From Flavobacteriales bacterium (lineage in GTDB: Bacteria > Bacteroidota > Bacteroidia > Flavobacteriales_D > Parvicellaceae): DNA of 45,663 nucleotides. A program made the position numbers and the translations under genes. The stretch is from NCBI GenBank assembly GCA_029251405.1, contig JAQXDK010000026.1, positions 1-45,663 on the forward strand, in the 5' to 3' direction. This document shows positions 11,228 through 18,807 of this stretch, in pieces. The stretch's first letter is position 1; every line of letters starts with the position of its first letter. The notes beneath the pieces are model-generated. The model saw only the letters and a program-made list of their open reading frames with translations, ran no database searches and was not told the DNA's origin.

Positions 11228-12013
11228 ATGACTTATTACAGTAGTCAATTCAAAGATGGGCTATTATCCTACAAAAAAGCTATGGTTTTTTTGTCAAAAA
11301 ACAACCTGACTTACTTCTTTGTATTTCCTCTAATTTTTAATCTATTCATATTTATTTCGGGGTTTTATTATGTGGATCAGTTTTTAGAGTTTCTAAACTC
11401 AGAATTAGCATCCTATATCGAGCTACAAACCTCTAATAATAGTTACTTAAGGTCGGATTATATTTTCAAATTCATGTATGTTCTTACTTGGATGATATCT
11501 AAAATAATTTTTGTTTTTATTTTCTCTTTATTTGGGGGCTATTTAACCATAATATTACTTTCTCCAGTATACACCATTTTGTCAGAAAAAACAGCAACTA
11601 TTTTAAATGGGACTAAGATGAATTTTGACGCAGTGCAGTTTATGAGCGATATTTTAAGAGCAATATTGATAGCTTTCAGAAATATATTATTACAGTTGGT
11701 GCTACATATTATTTTATTATGTTTTTCAATAATCCCTGTTTTAGGTTGGGCAGTTGTTTTTATAGGTAATCTTGCTTTTGCCTCTTATTTCTATGGGTTT
11801 TCTTTTATGGACTACACCATGGAAAGGCACCGACTTTCTATTAAGGATTCTGTGTTGTTTGTCAGAAAGAATAAGGGTTTAGCAGTGGGGCTAGGAGTTG
11901 CTTTTCAAGTATGCATGTTAATTCCGTTTATTGGCAGCTTTACGGCCAGTTTTTTATCGATTATTTTTGTTGTATCAGCTACTATTACTTTGGAAGAAAA
12001 CAAGTTGTTATAG
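11228..12013 (+). CDS. EI24/CysZ-like integral membrane protein
   Basis: This 261-residue membrane protein belongs to the EI24 domain family, which also contains the sulfate transporter CysZ. Visible features are the N-terminal FKDGLLSYKKAMVFLSKNNLTYFFVFPLIFN, several long hydrophobic helices, FGGYLTIILLSPVYTILSEKT in the middle, and the late SFMDYTMERHRLSIKDSV segment typical of the family. No sulfur-assimilation genes are nearby, so a sulfate role is not supported by context. It overlaps the TlpA-like gene by 6 bp, tail to tail. Confidence 0.78.
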   Translation: MTYYSSQFKDGLLSYKKAMVFLSKNNLTYFFVFPLIFNLFIFISGFYYVDQFLEFLNSELASYIELQTSNNSYLRSDYIFKFMYVLTWMISKIIFVFIFSLFGGYLTIILLSPVYTILSEKTATILNGTKMNFDAVQFMSDILRAILIAFRNILLQLVLHIILLCFSIIPVLGWAVVFIGNLAFASYFYGFSFMDYTMERHRLSIKDSVLFVRKNKGLAVGLGVAFQVCMLIPFIGSFTASFLSIIFVVSATITLEENKLL

Positions 12014-12523
12014 TAAACTTTTTATTTTTTCAACCATTGAATTAAATTCTTTTTCAGCATATAGTCTTGTTAAAAAAGCTATTTCTCCATTTTTATTTAC
12101 TACAATATTTCTTGTTACTCCTGCTCCTTCTAAAGTAAAGTCTGAAAATATTTTTCCTTCAGGATCGTAAGCTATCGGATAGGTAACCCCCATTTTTTCA
12201 ATGAAAACATCCACTTTTTCCTTAGCCTCTTTGGTGTCGATGCCAATTAGTAAAAATTCTTCATCTTTAAATTGTTGCCAAACTTGTTCTTCCAATGCAG
12301 GCATTTCTCTTCTGCAGACACTGCACCAAGATCCTGTAAATTGCAAAACCACCACTTTCCCGTTAAGTTTTTCACTATTCCAAACCTCCCCATTTCTCAT
12401 TTCCATTTCCAGATCGGGCAACTGGTCTCCAATTTTTATTTTATATCCTCTGTTGGTTTCGTTTTGAGTAACCCCAAATACGGCTATACCAACAAATAAA
12501 GTTAGAAGTAAAGCATTTTTCAT
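12008..12523 (-). CDS. TlpA-like exported thioredoxin
   Basis: This 171-residue protein has a signal peptide ending near residue 19 and a thioredoxin/AhpC-TSA fold. The redox motif is SWCSVCRREMP with Cys67 and Cys70. The segments KVVVLQFTGSWC, EFLLIGIDTKE and YPIAYDPEGKIFSDF (close to the cis-Pro region) fit the TlpA/ResA group. It is probably periplasmic, where such proteins reduce disulfides, for instance in apocytochromes. The CxxCH genes starting at 12643 are close by on the other strand, which makes help in cytochrome c maturation an attractive but unproven idea. Confidence 0.85.
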   Translation of the reverse strand: MKNALLLTLFVGIAVFGVTQNETNRGYKIKIGDQLPDLEMEMRNGEVWNSEKLNGKVVVLQFTGSWCSVCRREMPALEEQVWQQFKDEEFLLIGIDTKEAKEKVDVFIEKMGVTYPIAYDPEGKIFSDFTLEGAGVTRNIVVNKNGEIAFLTRLYAEKEFNSMVEKIKSLL

Positions 12524-12567
12524 TTATTAATGTATCTTAATTATTTAATAGTCTATTTATTTGATAT

Positions 12568-12599
12568 TTGTTAATGTAAAAATATAACCCTAAATTTGT
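12568..12599 (+). promoter_or_regulatory. Bacteroidota consensus promoter for the CxxCH module
   Basis: TTTG (12568-12571) is followed after exactly 20 bases by TAAATTTG (12592-12599). Both are full matches to the Bacteroidota sigma-factor consensus TTTG-N19-21-TAnnTTTG. The start codon of the heme lipoprotein gene is 43 bp downstream. It is the best promoter match I found in the window. Confidence 0.65.
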
Positions 12600-12642: not shown

Positions 12643-12975
12643 ATGAATTTAAAAAGTTATTTATTTATTTTATTGATATCTGCACTAATTAGTTGCTCTA
12701 AAGATAAGACGAATACTTGTACGATCATACCATCTTACGATGTAGAAATATCATCAATAATTAATTCTTATTGTATAGTTTGCCATCAGTCTGGAAATGC
12801 AGCTGGTGGAATAAACTTAGAAAATGAAAATTTTGTTGAGCAACACATCGATCAAATTATTTCAGAAATTGAAACACAGTCAATGCCGCAATACGGATCA
12901 CCAGCACCAACAGATGCAGAAAGAGATTCTATAATCATAATACTTAATTGTTGGTTAGACAATGTTGTTAGATAA
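12643..12975 (+). CDS. Heme-binding lipoprotein with a single CxxCH
   Basis: This 110-residue lipoprotein has the lipobox LISC (Cys18). One c-type heme site is visible, CIVCH at residues 44-48, in the context ISSIINSYCIVCHQSG. A candidate axial methionine is Met81 in QSMPQYGSPAPT, followed by a C-terminal helix IIIILNCWLDN. The layout is that of the short cytochrome c-like domain common in Bacteroidota and Planctomycetes. It is probably attached to the outer membrane or periplasmic face and passes electrons. It heads the plus-strand set 12643-15510 behind a consensus promoter. Confidence 0.8.
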   Translation: MNLKSYLFILLISALISCSKDKTNTCTIIPSYDVEISSIINSYCIVCHQSGNAAGGINLENENFVEQHIDQIISEIETQSMPQYGSPAPTDAERDSIIIILNCWLDNVVR

Positions 12976-12999
12976 TGAACCATTAATGAAAAAATTAAT

Positions 13000-13848
13000 A
13001 TGAAAAAAATTATTTCCATAACACTCTCCATAACACTTTTAACTACTTGGCTTTTAACCGAGAAAAATCCTCACTCTGTTATTAATCACGCTTCTTTAAT
13101 AAATTCTGGCGGAGCTCCTACAGGTAAAACCGGAGCACCAGGGGAAAATAATTGCACCATGTGTCATAGTGGAACACTGAACAGTGGAGCCCAAACATCT
13201 AATGTTGTTTTTTCAGGATCTAATTATGAATATGTTCCTGGAACCACTTATGATCTAAATTTAATCTTAAATAATGGTGATGCTAAAAATGGATTTCAAT
13301 TGGTGGTTTTGGATTCAGTTTCCAATAACAATGCAGGAAATTTATTAGTTACAGACGCTGTAAATACCCAATTAGCAACGGGTAACAATCGAACATATTT
13401 AAATCATACTGCAGCAGGAAATGGGTCAACAAATTGGAATTTTCAATGGACCGCACCAACAACCGATATCGGACCTGTTGTAGTATATTATGCTTATAAC
13501 GTTGCCGGGTATCCACTTAGCAATACCTCGGGAGACAATATCTACACTAATCAAATCACCCTAAGTCCTGCAAATACTTCTTTTCTTATATCAACACAGT
13601 CTATAGATTTTGATTGTTATATAGATGACTACAACCGACTAAATATTATATCTAATTATACTTTTAGACAATCGGCTGCTATAGTAACTTTATATAATAT
13701 TACTGGAAAAGAAGTTTTTTCTAAGACTCTATCGTCCAATATTAACGATACTCAATCTTTAGAACTACCTCAAGATTTAAAATCGGGTATTTACATTGTT
13801 TCATTTAAGTCAGGTTCTTCGGTCAAAACAAAAAAAATAATTATTTAA
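13000..13848 (+). CDS. Choice-of-anchor V protein with CxxCH and T9SS type A domain
   Basis: This 282-residue exported protein has an N-terminal signal and then GAPGENNCTMCHSGTLNSG, which holds a heme-attachment motif at Cys52-Cys55-His56. A Reeler-like beta-sandwich of the choice-of-anchor V type follows at about 70-195 (YVPGTTYDLNL, GFQLVVLD, NFQWTAPTTDIGPVVVYYAYN). The last 75 residues are a T9SS type A sorting domain (VTLYNITGKEVF, GIYIVSFKSG). So a monoheme protein seems to be exported to the cell surface. The family is known but its function is not. It lies 24 bp after the heme lipoprotein gene. Confidence 0.8.
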   Translation: MKKIISITLSITLLTTWLLTEKNPHSVINHASLINSGGAPTGKTGAPGENNCTMCHSGTLNSGAQTSNVVFSGSNYEYVPGTTYDLNLILNNGDAKNGFQLVVLDSVSNNNAGNLLVTDAVNTQLATGNNRTYLNHTAAGNGSTNWNFQWTAPTTDIGPVVVYYAYNVAGYPLSNTSGDNIYTNQITLSPANTSFLISTQSIDFDCYIDDYNRLNIISNYTFRQSAAIVTLYNITGKEVFSKTLSSNINDTQSLELPQDLKSGIYIVSFKSGSSVKTKKIII

Positions 13849-13851
13849 ACA

Positions 13852-14121
13852 TTGTTATCCGAAATTGACATAGATAGAATAATCCAAATGGCATGGGAGG
13901 ATAGAACACCATTCGAGGCCATTAAATACCAATTTAATATTTCAGAAAAGGAAGTAATTCAACTTATGAAAAAAGAAATGACTTTGAAAAACTGGAAAAA
14001 ATGGAGAGAAAGAGTTCAAGGAAGAAAAACAAAACATTTATCTTTAAGAGATGAAGGTGTAAACCGATTTAAGTGCTCAAGACAAAGAAATATTAGTGGA
14101 AATAAAATCAGTAAGAGATAA
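13852..14121 (+). CDS. TIGR03643 family small protein
   Basis: This 89-residue protein probably starts at a TTG codon 3 bp after the preceding stop. It has the conserved core IDRIIQMAWEDRTPFEAI followed by helix-turn-helix-like FNISEKEVIQLMKKEM and then WKKWRERVQGRKTKH, which matches what I recall of TIGR03643. The C-terminal tail is basic. A nucleic-acid-binding role is possible, but the function is unknown. It is cytoplasmic and sits between two envelope genes, with 3 bp on each side. Confidence 0.75.
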   Translation: MLSEIDIDRIIQMAWEDRTPFEAIKYQFNISEKEVIQLMKKEMTLKNWKKWRERVQGRKTKHLSLRDEGVNRFKCSRQRNISGNKISKR

Positions 14122-14124
14122 AAA

Positions 14125-14994
14125 ATGAAATATTTGTTGTTCTACATGTTCTTATTTTCTATCTTACCATTTTTAGGTCAAGAAAATTGGGATTTCGACA
14201 ACAAAGAGCCACAAAAAAAATTATTTTTAGATACTAGAGCTGTCAACGGTCACACTGCCAATACGCTGGAGGAAAAAGTATTAGACTTTAGAATTACTCA
14301 TCGTTTTGGAGAAATAGCAACCCCTCAATCATACAGGACTTTATTTGGCTTTGATAATTCCACAGACATTAGAATTGCTTTGGAATATGGAATAACAGAC
14401 GAATTAATGTTAGGTTTTGGAAGATGTAAAGGTGCAGGTCCTTATCTTGAATTTTGGGACACATTTTTAAAATATAATTTCATTTCTTCTAGCGATGAAA
14501 ATTTCAAAGCAACCTTAAATACAAAGCTTTTTTATACCAGTATGGCCAGTTCTTCGGATATATCTTCGATAACTTTTTTTGATAAAGCTATCCATAGAAT
14601 TTCTTATCATTCTGAAATACTATTAGCGTACCAAGTGCATCAAAAAGTTGCAATTCAGTTAAGCCCAGGATTTTCTTACAGGAACTTAACTAATGCTGAG
14701 GATGAAAATTTGCTTCTGGATTTAGCAAGTACAGCTAAAGTTCACCTTTTCAAAAAGGTGAGTTTAATGCTTGAACATTTTTGGATTATTAATGCTAATG
14801 AATATAGAAAAGAAAGTTATCAAAACCCTTTTGGAATAGGAATTGAGATAAATACTTTTGCTCATGTTTTTCAGCTTAATTTTATGAATTCTAAGGGTTT
14901 AGGAGCAGGACAATTTATTCCGTTCACAACTAGTAATTGGTCAGAGGGTGAATTTAGATTTGGCTTTACTATTGCAAGAAAATTTAATTTATAG
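14125..14994 (+). CDS. DUF5777-like outer-membrane beta-barrel protein
   Basis: This 289-residue protein has a signal peptide ending FLGQ and many short alternating beta strands with aromatic girdle residues. Examples are EKVLDFRITHRFGEI, IRIALEYGITDELMLGFGR, YSEILLAYQV-type strands and a C-terminal strand ending in FRFGFTIARKFNL. This fits a transmembrane barrel. The block LDTRAVNGHTANTLEEKVLDF with RFGEIATPQSY is what I recall of DUF5777. Its position between a surface heme protein and a YceI protein suggests a porin or conduit for that module, but this is inferred. Confidence 0.72.
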   Translation: MKYLLFYMFLFSILPFLGQENWDFDNKEPQKKLFLDTRAVNGHTANTLEEKVLDFRITHRFGEIATPQSYRTLFGFDNSTDIRIALEYGITDELMLGFGRCKGAGPYLEFWDTFLKYNFISSSDENFKATLNTKLFYTSMASSSDISSITFFDKAIHRISYHSEILLAYQVHQKVAIQLSPGFSYRNLTNAEDENLLLDLASTAKVHLFKKVSLMLEHFWIINANEYRKESYQNPFGIGIEINTFAHVFQLNFMNSKGLGAGQFIPFTTSNWSEGEFRFGFTIARKFNL

Positions 14995-14997
14995 AAT

Positions 14998-15510
14998 ATG
15001 AAAAAAACATTATTAATTGCCATTTTAAGTTGTTTAATCTCTTCAGTATTTACTCAAGATTTTAAAATAAATTCAGCTGAATCTGTTGTGGAATTTAATT
15101 ATGTCAGCGAAGAGGCTGTAGGTACCATTAAAGGAGTTTCTGGTAAAATTCATTTTGATGTGATAACACCATTGGCTAGTTATTTTGAAGTTAAGGCAGA
15201 TATTAAATCTATTAACACCTCGAATAAAACTAGAGACAAACATTTAAATGCAGCAGATTTTTTCTATACAGAAAAGTACCCGTATATCTCCTTTAAAAGC
15301 GAGAGTTTGTCTGTTAATGAGAATAATTTTATTTTAGTTGGAGCGCTATCAATAAAAGAAATTTCTAAAAAAGAAGAAATTAAGTTTACCTATGAAAACA
15401 AGGTCTTTGTTGGGAGAATGGTCATATATTCAAATGATTATGGAATCAAAGAACAAAAAACCCGTGATAAAAGCAAAATCTTAGTTAAAATTACCGTACC
15501 GATTTTTTAA
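14998..15510 (+). CDS. YceI family exported protein
   Basis: This 170-residue protein has a signal peptide ending near residue 19 (VFT-Q) and a YceI-like lipocalin-type barrel. Motifs are SAESVVEFNYVSEEAVGTIKGVSGKI, IKSINTSNKTRDKHLNAADFF and YPYISFKSES. YceI proteins bind isoprenoid-like lipids, such as quinone precursors, in a hydrophobic tunnel. It starts 3 bp after the DUF5777 gene and closes the module 12643-15510. A role in carrying a quinone-type lipid for the heme proteins is possible. Confidence 0.85.
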   Translation: MKKTLLIAILSCLISSVFTQDFKINSAESVVEFNYVSEEAVGTIKGVSGKIHFDVITPLASYFEVKADIKSINTSNKTRDKHLNAADFFYTEKYPYISFKSESLSVNENNFILVGALSIKEISKKEEIKFTYENKVFVGRMVIYSNDYGIKEQKTRDKSKILVKITVPIF

Positions 15511-15574: not shown

Positions 15575-18112
15575 TTGAGAAGACTTATTTTCACTTTCGG
15601 ATTTTTATTTTTAAACTCATTTCTTGTCTATTCTATTGATCAGAAAGAAGCGTTGCATTACAGTGAATTATTAGACTCTTTAACTGATAACAACCTAATT
15701 TTATCCAAAGAGTACCTTAAAGACAATCCAACTAAAGCTATAAGTTTTATTACTCAGACGATTGAAACTTCAGACAATGAGCTTTTAATAGCAAAATGTT
15801 ATCTGCAAGCAGCTATAATTTATAATTACTCTTTTTTAAATAAAGGTAAATCTGCATTAGAAAATTTATCGAATGCAAAGGAAATTTATTTCCGAACGAA
15901 AAATCAAGAGAAATTAATTTTTACAGACATTCTAATTGGACAAGTGTATGTTAAGACTGGCGACCTTTTAGCAGCTAAAAACATTTTTAAAAAAGCATTT
16001 GAAGAAGGTCAGGAATTCAAGGCTTTCCCCTTAGCATTTTTAGCACATCTAGCTTTAATTGATATAGATAATAGTTTACTAGTATTTAATGACGACGAGT
16101 TAATTAAATTAATAGATAAGTTTGATAACTCTAAGCAAAAGGCACATGCTTTTTTTATTAGTTTTAAGAGGGCAGCACTAAACAATTGGGAAAACTTAGC
16201 AATTGAATACTTAGATAGTGCGGAGACACTTTATAATAAAAGTAGTTTGCACAATTTATCTATTGACATGCTAATTAAAAAAGCAGAACTCTATGAATCA
16301 AAAGATAACGTTCAAAAAGTAGTGCAATTAAATGAAAATATTTATCAAAAATCTATAGCAAATAACTACGGAAAGGGATTAATCTACAGCTGCTACAAGT
16401 TAGCTGACTTTTTTGAATCGATTGAAAGATATGATTTTGCAAATCCTTATTTAAAATATATCAATAAAATAGAGATGGCTGAGGGAGAAAAAGAACTCAA
16501 CCAAAAAATTTTGTTAGCGGAAAAAGAAAAGAAAATTGACCTTGAACGTGTAAGCGCAAAAAATGAAGTAAAATATCAGGGATATTTAACTATGTTAGGT
16601 TTTGGTGTCGCACTTTTGATACTCATTTTAGCGATATACATATTCTCTGCATATAAAACCAAATCAACATTAGCCAACGACCTACTTTTAGCTTATAACA
16701 ACAACGAAGAATTAAAAAAAGAAAAAGACGATTTTTTAGCCTATACAACTCATGAAATAAGAACACCTCTTTCTGCAGTAATTTCAGCTTCTGAAATATT
16801 GGATAGAACCAAATTAAATTCAGCCCAAAAGGAACATTTAACAGCCTTAAAAAGTAGTGCAAGTAATATATTATTTCTAGTTAATGACATTTTAGATTTA
16901 GCAAAATTAGAAAAAAGAAAAATTGTTTTGGAAAAAACACCATTTTCTCCAGTACAGATTATCCAAAATACGATATCAATCCTTAACAGCAAAGCAATAG
17001 GTAATAATGTAGAAGTTGATTTTATTTGCGAGGAGAATTTTCCAAAAAATATATTGGGGGACCCTTTTAGGTTTCAACAGATTATGGTCAATTTATTAGA
17101 CAACGCCATAAAATATGCTCCCAATGGAAAAGCAAGTATATTTCTTAAAGTTCAAAATAAAAATCACCTAAAAGTAATTGTAAAAGATAACGGTAAAGGA
17201 ATTGATAAAGACAAGTTGAAAATCATTTTTAAGGCTTATGCTCAAGAAAAAATCAATACTTCAAGACAGTACGGTGGTACCGGGTTAGGACTTGCGATTT
17301 GTGATTTAATTATAAAATTAATGGAAGGAAATATACATGTTAATTCCAATTCTAAGGGAACAGAATTCAGTTTCGAAACACCCATGCAAATAGTTAAAGA
17401 GCTAAGTATAAAAAATCCAAAACAAAATGATTTACAACTCAATAACATCAATATTTTAATGGCAGAAGACGATGAACTTAACGGTCAGTTATTTAAAAAT
17501 TTAATTCAAGACTCTAAGAATAACATTAAAGTAGATTGGGTTAAAAATGGGATAGAAGTTATGGAAAGAATTACTGAAAAATCCTATCAAATCATTTTAA
17601 TGGATATTGAAATGCCTTTAAAAAACGGATTTGAAACCAGTCAATTAATACGAAAGCACAAGGACTTAAAGTTAATCAATATTCCTATTATAGCTATGAC
17701 TGCTCATTTGGTCGAAGATGTTTTACAAAAATGTTATGAATCAGGAATGAATGACTGTATTTCTAAGCCATTTAAATTAGATTTTCTTTATAAAAAAATT
17801 CATGAAACTTTAAATCTTTCAGTTCCCAACTATAACCCAATAAAAGAAAACATAGAAAAATACTTGAAAATTTACATTAAAAATTTTAAAGCTGATTTCA
17901 GCAATTTAATTTCCTTTATCGAAGCTGGAGATGTTGAAAATATTAAAAGTAAATTACATAAAATGAAAGGTTCTTCATCAACTATGGAATTTAAAAATAT
18001 TGTTGCAACTCTTGCTGAAATGGAAAACAAAAAAAGAGTAGATTTAAAAGACGATTTATTGAAATTAAAAAGACAATTTTTTAATTCCACCAATGAAAAT
18101 ATAGAAATATGA
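15575..18112 (+). CDS. TPR-containing hybrid histidine kinase with REC and HPt domains
   Basis: This 845-residue sensor kinase probably starts at TTG. A signal peptide (LVYS-ID) is followed by TPR-like helical repeats to about residue 330, one membrane helix near 338-360, and a HisKA domain with phospho-acceptor His393 in THEIRTPLS. The HATPase domain has NLLDNAIKYA, DNGKGID and GGTGLGLAIC. A receiver domain follows with acidic pair EDD and phospho-acceptor Asp677 in LMDIEMP. The C-terminal HPt domain has His795 in LHKMKGSSS. This is a complete internal phosphorelay. The LytTR regulator overlaps it by 4 bp and is the obvious output. The periplasmic TPR part is the likely sensor or partner-binding region. 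Confidence 0.88.
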   Translation: MRRLIFTFGFLFLNSFLVYSIDQKEALHYSELLDSLTDNNLILSKEYLKDNPTKAISFITQTIETSDNELLIAKCYLQAAIIYNYSFLNKGKSALENLSNAKEIYFRTKNQEKLIFTDILIGQVYVKTGDLLAAKNIFKKAFEEGQEFKAFPLAFLAHLALIDIDNSLLVFNDDELIKLIDKFDNSKQKAHAFFISFKRAALNNWENLAIEYLDSAETLYNKSSLHNLSIDMLIKKAELYESKDNVQKVVQLNENIYQKSIANNYGKGLIYSCYKLADFFESIERYDFANPYLKYINKIEMAEGEKELNQKILLAEKEKKIDLERVSAKNEVKYQGYLTMLGFGVALLILILAIYIFSAYKTKSTLANDLLLAYNNNEELKKEKDDFLAYTTHEIRTPLSAVISASEILDRTKLNSAQKEHLTALKSSASNILFLVNDILDLAKLEKRKIVLEKTPFSPVQIIQNTISILNSKAIGNNVEVDFICEENFPKNILGDPFRFQQIMVNLLDNAIKYAPNGKASIFLKVQNKNHLKVIVKDNGKGIDKDKLKIIFKAYAQEKINTSRQYGGTGLGLAICDLIIKLMEGNIHVNSNSKGTEFSFETPMQIVKELSIKNPKQNDLQLNNINILMAEDDELNGQLFKNLIQDSKNNIKVDWVKNGIEVMERITEKSYQIILMDIEMPLKNGFETSQLIRKHKDLKLINIPIIAMTAHLVEDVLQKCYESGMNDCISKPFKLDFLYKKIHETLNLSVPNYNPIKENIEKYLKIYIKNFKADFSNLISFIEAGDVENIKSKLHKMKGSSSTMEFKNIVATLAEMENKKRVDLKDDLLKLKRQFFNSTNENIEI

Positions 18113-18807
18113 TTAGAGTAATTATAGTCGATGACGATGAATTGTGTATCTCCGTTATCGAAGATATGATAAGTCAACTGGACGATTTCATTTGTATCGA
18201 AACCTTTCAGAATGCATTAGATGCCTACAATTATCTTGAAGCTAATGATGTTGATGTTGTTTTTCTAGACGTAGAAATGCCTAAAATGGGGGGGATAGAA
18301 CTCTTAAAAAGTCTAAAAAAATCTCCAATGGTGGTTATGATTACCTCACATGAAGAATTTGCATTAGAATCGTATGAGTACAACGTAACAGATTTCTTAA
18401 AAAAACCAGCAGAATGGTCTCGATTTCTTAAAACGATAGAAAAAATCAGGAAAGAATTTCTTGACTTAGCTGCTCAACTCCTTGAAAGTTCTGATCAAGA
18501 ACATGTTTTTATTAAAACAGACTCTAAATTGGTACAATTAAACTTGAGCCAAGTTTTATGGGTTGAGGCACTCGGGAATTACATAAGAGTTCACACAGAA
18601 GAAGATAAATACACGGTGTTATCAACAATGAAAGAAATAGAAGCAAAGTTGCCTCCTAAGGACTTTATAAGAGTTCAACGTTCTTTTATCATAAGAGTAG
18701 ATAAGGTAAAGGCTATTGAGGACAATTACATTATTATTAAAGACAAAGAAATACATATAGGAAAATCTTACAAAGAAGATTTTAATAAAAGAATTAATTA
18801 TTTGTAG
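18109..18807 (+). CDS. LytTR-type response regulator
   Basis: This 232-residue regulator has a receiver domain (VDDDE near the N terminus, phospho-acceptor Asp54 in VFLDVEMP, switch Thr in MITSHEE, and Lys in FLKKP). From about residue 135 comes a LytTR DNA-binding domain with VQLNLSQVLWVEALGNYIRVHT and FIRVQRSFIIRVDKV. LytTR proteins bind short direct repeats in promoters and often control surface or secreted functions. The ATGA overlap with the hybrid kinase supports a pair. Targets are not visible; the adjacent CxxCH/YceI genes are a possibility. Confidence 0.9.
   Translation: MIRVIIVDDDELCISVIEDMISQLDDFICIETFQNALDAYNYLEANDVDVVFLDVEMPKMGGIELLKSLKKSPMVVMITSHEEFALESYEYNVTDFLKKPAEWSRFLKTIEKIRKEFLDLAAQLLESSDQEHVFIKTDSKLVQLNLSQVLWVEALGNYIRVHTEEDKYTVLSTMKEIEAKLPPKDFIRVQRSFIIRVDKVKAIEDNYIIIKDKEIHIGKSYKEDFNKRINYL

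Follow-up and report, generated by a model that had tools for sequence, protein, structure and literature searches.

The window, a stretch of 45,663 nucleotides from a Flavobacteriales bacterium (contig JAQXDK010000026.1), carries five ORFs in a run on one strand, separated by gaps of 24, 3, 3 and 3 bp (Table 1). The gene run, its tight spacing and all five family names given in a previous sequence-only reading were borne out by ORF calling and profile searches. The proposal that the five genes form a single system stood for three of them, a c-type-cytochrome-like lipoprotein, a YceI protein and a DUF5777 barrel, whose linkage is kept phylum-wide and which constitute the core, and did not stand for the five together.

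Table 1. Features of the five-gene run and its flank
Feature	Position	Strand	Basis or remark
TlpA/ResA-like thioredoxin	12008-12523	opposite to the five-gene run	profile matches
Bacteroidota-type promoter-like match, TTTG-N20-TAAATTTG	12567-12598	+	44 bp before first ATG
Core 1: small c-type-cytochrome-like lipoprotein, 110 aa	12643-12975	+	ORF and profile match
Accessory: choice-of-anchor V protein, 282 aa	13000-13848	+	profile matches
Passenger: DUF2805/TIGR03643 protein, 89 aa, start codon TTG	13852-14121	+	profile matches
Core 2: DUF5777 outer-membrane barrel (predicted), 289 aa, 12 predicted strands	14125-14994	+	profile match, structure prediction
Core 3: YceI lipocalin-like protein, 170 aa	14998-15510	+	ORF and profile match

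The window contains two matches to the pattern TTTG-N20-TAAATTTG, which we take to be the Bacteroidota-type promoter consensus; 0.95 would be expected, and 23 of 100 shuffles reach two. TANNTTTG lies below chance (61 versus 80 expected). The distance of the upstream match to the first ATG is plausible, and the count in the whole window is no more than chance, so the description of this site as the best consensus promoter in the window was not upheld.

Products of the run

The first product matches Cytochrome_CBB3 (PF13442; E 2e-6, 28.5 bits, cutoff 27) and features a lipobox Cys18 (CSKDKTN), a CIVCH motif at 12772-12786 and an MP motif farther on, in agreement with the monoheme-type lipoprotein named earlier. 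By its C-x(2-5)-CH motif within a cytochrome-like profile it classes as a c-type cytochrome with predicted heme attachment. The motif is kept in 80/80 sequences of an alignment of the window protein and its relatives (two duplicates included), 56 of them with the CxxCH form. A surface location received no support from the lipoprotein start, as CSKDKTN with its net charge of +1 mismatches the published export signals, namely the net-negative C-X-K-(D/E)2-X or SDDFE/SDDDD-like starts; these rules were established in Capnocytophaga, Flavobacterium and Bacteroides (PMC5080379) and not in this cytochrome family. The starts of 89 cytochrome lipoproteins averaged a charge of -1.28, compared with -0.66 for 77 other lipoproteins at the same loci (p 0.019), a slight difference among related sequences.

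The YceI product was likewise confirmed by its family profile (PF04264; E 3.8e-25, 89.4 bits, cutoff 23.7); it bears a Sec-type signal, and inspection by eye revealed no convincing lipobox. The DUF5777 product matches PF19089 with E 2.8e-61 (207.3 bits, cutoff 23.1).

The choice-of-anchor V protein was assigned by NF041895 (E 1.9e-24, 86.4 bits, cutoff 42), with a type A tail of the type IX secretion system (T9SS) at approximately 13636-13845 (TIGR04183; E 6.7e-10, 38.8 bits, cutoff 23) and a CTMCH at 13153-13167, as expected of the surface-exported protein with its own motif that had been proposed. No Pfam match was obtained for it at E 0.1. Its predicted structure suggests a reeler-like fold, since the Foldseek matches include the reeler domain of F-spondin (17-20% identity, TMt 0.63-0.68), although the two top ranks are other proteins and many beta sandwiches come further down. 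Of the 27 genomes in the order sample that carry this family, 12 have it in linkage with the barrel, and among the matches listed for the 295-genome sample, compared by eye, most copies lie off the barrel's contig. We class the surface CxxCH protein as an accessory that recurs but stands outside the core; at locus L066 its slot is occupied by a cupredoxin with a T9SS tail.

Two further candidates were dropped as module parts. The TIGR03643 protein carries its family name correctly (DUF2805, E 1.7e-33; TIGR03643, E 2.8e-31), and is a local passenger, given that it neighbours the barrel in just 3 of the 48 order genomes carrying it, all of one genus, and additionally at the MAG locus L064. The TlpA-like thioredoxin does lie next door on the other strand, as had been pointed out, and its participation was rejected, as it was found in only 4 of 87 in-class neighbourhoods.

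Linkage of the trio and exchange of the carrier

The neighbourhood of the three core genes is conserved well past the source genome and above chance. Of 87 in-class loci, 77 encode a C-x(2-5)-CH protein and 61 encode YceI no more than four genes away from the barrel, and ten have no C-x(2-5)-CH neighbour. These loci are no random sample, because most were taken from the top-scoring matches, with roughly one locus for each genus or family. Counted per gene, the motif occurred in 138/672 near and 12/579 far genes, and YceI in 61/672 and 7/579. Outside the class, where the 35 loci L151-L185 represent 31 genomes with many from one family, a cytochrome lay within the same distance at 44 and YceI at 50 of 55 loci (per gene, 49/425 near versus 7/331 far and 54/425 versus 1/331, respectively). 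The counts exclude loci L001-L061 (n=61, most of ~3.7 kb), and left out beforehand were L072 and L080, taken to be the same contigs as L062 and L070 on account of equal length and gene content, and L116, whose barrel ORF was uncalled. In the 36 contiguous cytochrome-YceI-barrel cases the median gaps were 2 and -1 bp, values that are lower bounds since the ORF picker uses the longest reading frame, or 4.5 and 2.5 bp when counted from the first Met. Distances of the three core proteins compared across 91 loci gave Spearman coefficients of 0.47-0.51, which were left out as evidence because shared ancestry alone can yield such values. That the run is a plain operon of unrelated envelope genes, of which the TIGR03643 passenger would be an example, is extremely unlikely given the tight spacing and the phylum-wide retention of the trio.

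Eleven of the 55 out-of-class loci have no cytochrome near the barrel. In five of them (L154 and L216-L219) the carrier is a Rieske protein (E 3.7e-10 to 1.3e-13), and in three others (L158, L184 and L226) a cupredoxin (E 8e-14, 4e-11 and 1e-14, respectively); no carrier was found at L212, and L153 breaks off at the contig end. A 341-aa neighbour with two CxxCH motifs returned cytochrome c6 as the sole match in a PDB sequence search. Since the carrier may be of the heme, copper or iron-sulfur type from one locus to another, electron movement in the outer envelope is the probable role of the trio. Linkage and carrier exchange together show a common need for an electron carrier and say nothing of membrane crossing.

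DUF5777 is carried by 259 of 295 sampled class genomes (16 of those without it identified by absence from the match table) and by 82 of 198 phylum genomes. The barrel co-occurs with heme-copper oxidase, being absent from 10 of 12 genomes without the oxidase, five of these ten belonging to one family, versus 26 of 283 others (Fisher p 1.2e-8).

The barrel compared with known systems

A model built from eight sequences predicts a closed barrel of 12 strands (pTM 0.68, mean pLDDT 68), which aligns with KdgM over 170 residues (Z 17.6, rmsd 2.2), and models of this moderate quality support the putative assignment of DUF5777 as an outer-membrane beta barrel. Sequence searching of the PDB with the barrel gave no match at E 1. 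Of the three outcomes that the sequence-only reading had named as refuting it, a missing conserved neighbourhood and a missing barrel fold were put to the test, and neither was observed.

The top structural matches are small oligosaccharide porins (KdgM and NanC), and some barrels without YceI neighbour EB_dh, NrfD and ferredoxin-type proteins, both of which would suit a solute channel merely co-expressed with periplasmic respiratory cytochromes, with no electrons crossing the outer membrane. This explanation is rather unlikely in view of two proteins, at L170 and L211 in two genomes, in which a cytochrome-like domain and DUF5777 are fused, since fusion to the barrel together with exchange of carrier types points to the carrier as a direct partner of the barrel. 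The fused domain was called by a CxxxxCH motif and a custom HMM (E 1.6e-5 with one sequence and 1.3e-5 with 20 loci), and Pfam gives no call for it; genomes G553 and G529 had been chosen since long frames hinted at fusions, and G553 alone was confirmed as one.

Cyc2 is a monoheme cytochrome fused to a porin of 16 strands. The L170 and L211 proteins, the only ones in which the fused form was seen, share this layout of a single-heme cytochrome and an outer-membrane barrel; in the window, by contrast, the genes are separate, 12 strands are predicted and YceI is a core partner. MtrAB-type porin-cytochrome conduits hold a multiheme cytochrome inside a large barrel. They resemble the module in combining a c-type cytochrome with a barrel at the outer membrane, and differ from the window, where the barrel is narrow and the cytochrome lipoprotein and the choice-of-anchor V protein have one CxxCH each. 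To our knowledge, there is no room for a cytochrome inside a 12-strand barrel.

YceI has been placed in redox chains elsewhere. In Cellvibrio japonicus, Cbp2D and Cbp2E have a quinone-binding domain of the YceI type (X158), which Cbp2D joins to c-type cytochrome domains with one CxxCH each for redox work outside the cytoplasm (PMC8981238; PMC12542752); in vitro, LPMOs receive electrons from the X183 cytochrome domain of this protein (PMC8981238). Here a single multidomain secreted protein includes a carbohydrate-binding module, in contrast to the module of the window, with its barrel and its exchangeable lipid-anchored carrier. By analogy with the electron supply proposed for Cbp2D and LPMOs, the surface CxxCH protein or the cupredoxin could feed an extracellular oxidoreductase, and surface-sorted partners do occur; such a supply line is very unlikely, as the core is much wider than the linkage to the surface partner and the ten window proteins scanned contain no LPMO or carbohydrate-binding domain.

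BcnA/LcoA offer a second parallel: in the envelope, the YceI-type lipocalin has a heme protein as its genetically linked partner; mutants show increased lipid peroxidation, and quinone recycling was proposed (PMC9113575). Their partner is a b-type membrane cytochrome, b561, and an outer-membrane barrel is no part of the system. A similar antioxidant, in which reduced quinone held by YceI quenches lipid peroxyl radicals, the carrier recharges or drains it and the barrel only organises the outer-membrane site, would fit both a core that includes YceI and the tie to aerobic respiration. We regard it as unlikely, if deserving of weight, because that role needs neither a barrel nor a surface-sorted carrier and no cytochrome b561 was detected in the ten scanned window proteins. 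In Shewanella, a YceJ-YceI chain was proposed for extracellular reduction (PMC8981235), and expression results on Riemerella under iron limitation list a YceI gene and cytochromes (PMC5429918), for which no tie to the present operon could be made.

A candidate electron-transfer module of aerobic Bacteroidota

Taken together, we favour, with a probability of roughly 60%, a module that transfers electrons at the outer membrane of Bacteroidota with aerobic respiration and is composed of an exchangeable lipid-anchored carrier, YceI and a docking barrel. The envelope redox module with a barrel that had been envisaged from the window is supported by the trio linkage, the carrier replacement, the two barrel fusions and the surface cupredoxin of L066. 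The carrier would be a lipid-anchored one-electron protein, mostly a small c-type cytochrome and at times a cupredoxin or Rieske protein; YceI, in the periplasm, probably holds an isoprenoid redox lipid, e.g. menaquinone; and DUF5777 may form a narrow 12-strand barrel on which the carrier docks. At the barrel, the anchored carrier would exchange electrons either with the lipid bound by YceI or with the pool of periplasmic cytochromes, and would in turn give them to, or take them from, a redox partner at the surface. In the lineage of the window, the added surface-sorted CxxCH protein could be such a partner outside the cell.

A more specific version is tentative and on balance doubtful: the trio with its interchangeable heme, copper or iron-sulfur carrier might be an undescribed outer-membrane conduit of aerobic Bacteroidota lacking any multiheme cytochrome, in which YceI ferries menaquinol, the carrier docks on the barrel and electrons flow to or from type IX-secreted surface heme or copper proteins. 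Both "DUF5777" and "choice-of-anchor V" were absent from the open-licence literature searched. If the module reading is true, a major phylum, largely aerobic in the sample, keeps an outer-membrane redox module to which the searched literature assigns no role, and the carriers exchanged in nature provide a simple handle for testing it.

Conservation of the gene neighbourhood

The window is one complete contig out of the 53 that make up a 2.23 Mb assembly, and its nearest named relatives are Crocinitomicaceae MAGs. ORF calls and profile matches confirmed the strand, gaps and families described for the five genes by the sequence-only reading, and the promoter-like match 5' of the first gene is present, but its alleged exceptional quality was not borne out. 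The kinase and regulator genes that follow the module also adjoin it in L062, L063 and L071, which are DUF5777 loci of relatives.

Features of the window with their coordinates
Feature	Coordinates	Description
Five-gene run	12643-15510	same strand
Small cytochrome	12643-12975	equivalent of the conserved lipoprotein start: CSKDKTN
DUF5777 barrel	14125-14994	H59 and H247, kept in 99%, seem from strand alternation to share a face with phenylalanines
Genes after the module	15575-18807	hybrid histidine kinase with receiver and Hpt domains; second gene response-regulator-like (by eye)

HMMs were built from the window proteins and iterated, ORFs were called, and neighbours within four genes of the barrel were recorded for 90 in-class DUF5777 loci (the window and L062-L150), 87 of which were counted after removal of two duplicates and one locus without a called barrel. 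A C-x(2-5)-CH protein was found near the barrel in 77/87 loci, a small cytochrome in 72 and YceI in 61, with the choice-of-anchor V label, which catches sorting tails too, in 18, DUF2805 in five and TlpA in four. Per gene, the C-x(2-5)-CH motif occurred in 138/672 near versus 12/579 far genes and YceI in 61/672 versus 7/579. The motif was absent near the barrel in ten of the 87 (L073, L074, L077, L082, L110, L115, L126, L128, L130 and L150). The gene order varies among relatives, both named ones and those at order level: choice-of-anchor V and cytochrome genes diverge from barrel and YceI in L064, L065, L067 and L070, whereas in L068, L100 and L106 barrel and YceI come first and are followed by cytochrome and choice-of-anchor V, with one extra gene intervening in L068 and L100. 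That the parts are reordered and still remain neighbours argues for a joint function.

As an independent test, the same HMMs were run on 55 loci that belong to the phylum but lie outside the class. Among L151-L185 (n = 35), 31 carried the cytochrome and 32 YceI, with the same-strand order cytochrome-YceI-barrel in 28; the numbers for L211-L230 (n = 20) were 13 and 18. Near and far genes differed again, both for the motif (34/271 versus 2/217 and 15/154 versus 5/114 in the two sets) and for YceI (35/271 versus 0/217 and 19/154 versus 1/114), the independent events being fewer than these counts suggest because one family supplies many loci. In 36 strictly contiguous trios the median gaps were 2 and -1 bp for the longest frames and 4.5 and 2.5 bp when taken to the first Met, the largest single gaps being 84 and 351 bp.

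Many small cytochromes begin, after the lipidated cysteine, with the conserved start C-Y-Y-D-[KN]-E-E-E-L-Y-P, and 80% of 74 sequences, a few with a misplaced start, have an acidic residue at +4. Other CxxCH proteins also occur near the barrel. Cluster c7, a ~340-aa protein that bears the motif twice, is present in 12 loci (L075, L076, L093-L095, L098, L099, L101-L103, L105 and L145), and its one scanned member matched known cytochromes mainly in its C-terminal part; L169, L171 and L172 have ~545-aa CxxCH proteins, of which the L169 one matches Temptin_C and a T9SS tail.

The predicted barrel and its proposed surface partner

The DUF5777 barrel was modelled from eight sequences with 12 strands (mean pLDDT 68, pTM 0.68), and the top structural relatives of the prediction were KdgM, NanC, FapF and autotransporter barrels. 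KdgM and NanC have 12 strands, and a folded cytochrome does not fit inside a barrel of this size. The structural matches show a common barrel type and say nothing on function. In contrast to MtrAB, in which electrons pass directly from heme to heme through the barrel, such transfer is unlikely here because the barrel is too small for a folded cytochrome; electron passage would require a small redox molecule, a peptide segment or lateral contact. Conservation across 147 barrel sequences is 99-100% at H59, F61, G75, H247, F249, G280, F281 and R285.

The choice-of-anchor V family was found in 27 of the 60 order genomes, within 2 kb of the barrel in 12. All 15 different proteins near a barrel keep the motif, as CxxCH in 13 and CxxxxCH in L138 and L140, a spacing variation shared with the small cytochromes; an additional match in L131 is a small cytochrome. 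The window protein is predicted with moderate confidence to be a reeler-like sandwich followed by a sorting domain. In L066 the choice-of-anchor V place beside the cytochrome is taken by a cupredoxin that bears a type IX sorting tail, and L129 encodes a cupredoxin lipoprotein together with a second protein that bears a sorting tail and scores slightly below the Pfam cutoff for cupredoxin.

Respiratory context and known parallels

Across the 295 class genomes, DUF5777 is present in 259 and the heme-copper oxidase COX1 in 283. DUF5777 is absent from 10/12 genomes without COX1 versus 26/283 with it (Fisher p 1.2e-8, genomes taken as independent; the ten belong to six families, five of them to one). 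The COX1-less genomes with DUF5777 are G036, a 69% complete assembly, and G190, whose sister genomes of the same genus have COX1. Some barrels without nearby YceI (L108, L167, L186, L189 and L190) sit among other respiratory-type genes, identified by Pfam for EB_dh in L190 and ferredoxin and NrfD in L167 and otherwise by eye.

Heme and isoprenoid synthesis genes flank the module in one lineage (L122, L130, L142 and the relatives L115, L128 and L129), including HemD (Pfam match in L142, shared cluster c21 in six loci), HemB in L130 and a polyprenyl synthase in L122. Cluster c3 is a small protein whose N-terminus carries a hydrophobic segment, and 22 in-class loci have it in the same-strand run; its one scanned member matched no Pfam family, and a neighbour in L187 resembling it by look is tRNA_anti-like.

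Parallels are described in several papers. Cbp2D joins YceI-type domains, one with bound ubiquinone-8, to c-type cytochrome domains (PMC8981238) and is required for growth on insoluble cellulose (PMC12542752); in Burkholderia, YceI and cytochrome b561 guard against lipid peroxidation (PMC9113575); and a YceJ-YceI chain has been proposed in extracellular reduction by Shewanella (PMC8981235). In the open-licence literature searched, no paper named DUF5777 or choice-of-anchor V, and no title on YceI with Bacteroidota/Flavobacteria, cytochromes or extracellular electron transfer pointed to the operon.

Exchange and fusion of the electron carrier

Eleven out-of-class loci have no separate cytochrome. 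A Rieske protein beside YceI replaces it in L154 and L216-L219 (barrel and Rieske genes lie on opposite strands in L219), and a plastocyanin-type cupredoxin does so in L158, L184 and L226, both kinds having signal peptides with a lipobox-like cysteine by eye. In L211 a cytochrome-like domain is fused in front of the barrel, the L153 neighbourhood is cut by a contig end, and the out-of-class profile scan found no carrier near the barrel in L212. In addition, L170 has both such a fusion and a separate cytochrome, and a Rieske protein adjoins the barrel besides a cytochrome in the in-class L148.

The envelope redox module first proposed from the window is upheld for the three-gene core and its accessory protein, strengthened by evidence beyond the reach of that reading, and we infer that a path across the membrane and a quinone may be part of it. 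Carrier replacement is the strongest evidence that the gene slot serves electron transfer, wherever the electrons go, as two unrelated kinds of carrier take the cytochrome's place in it.
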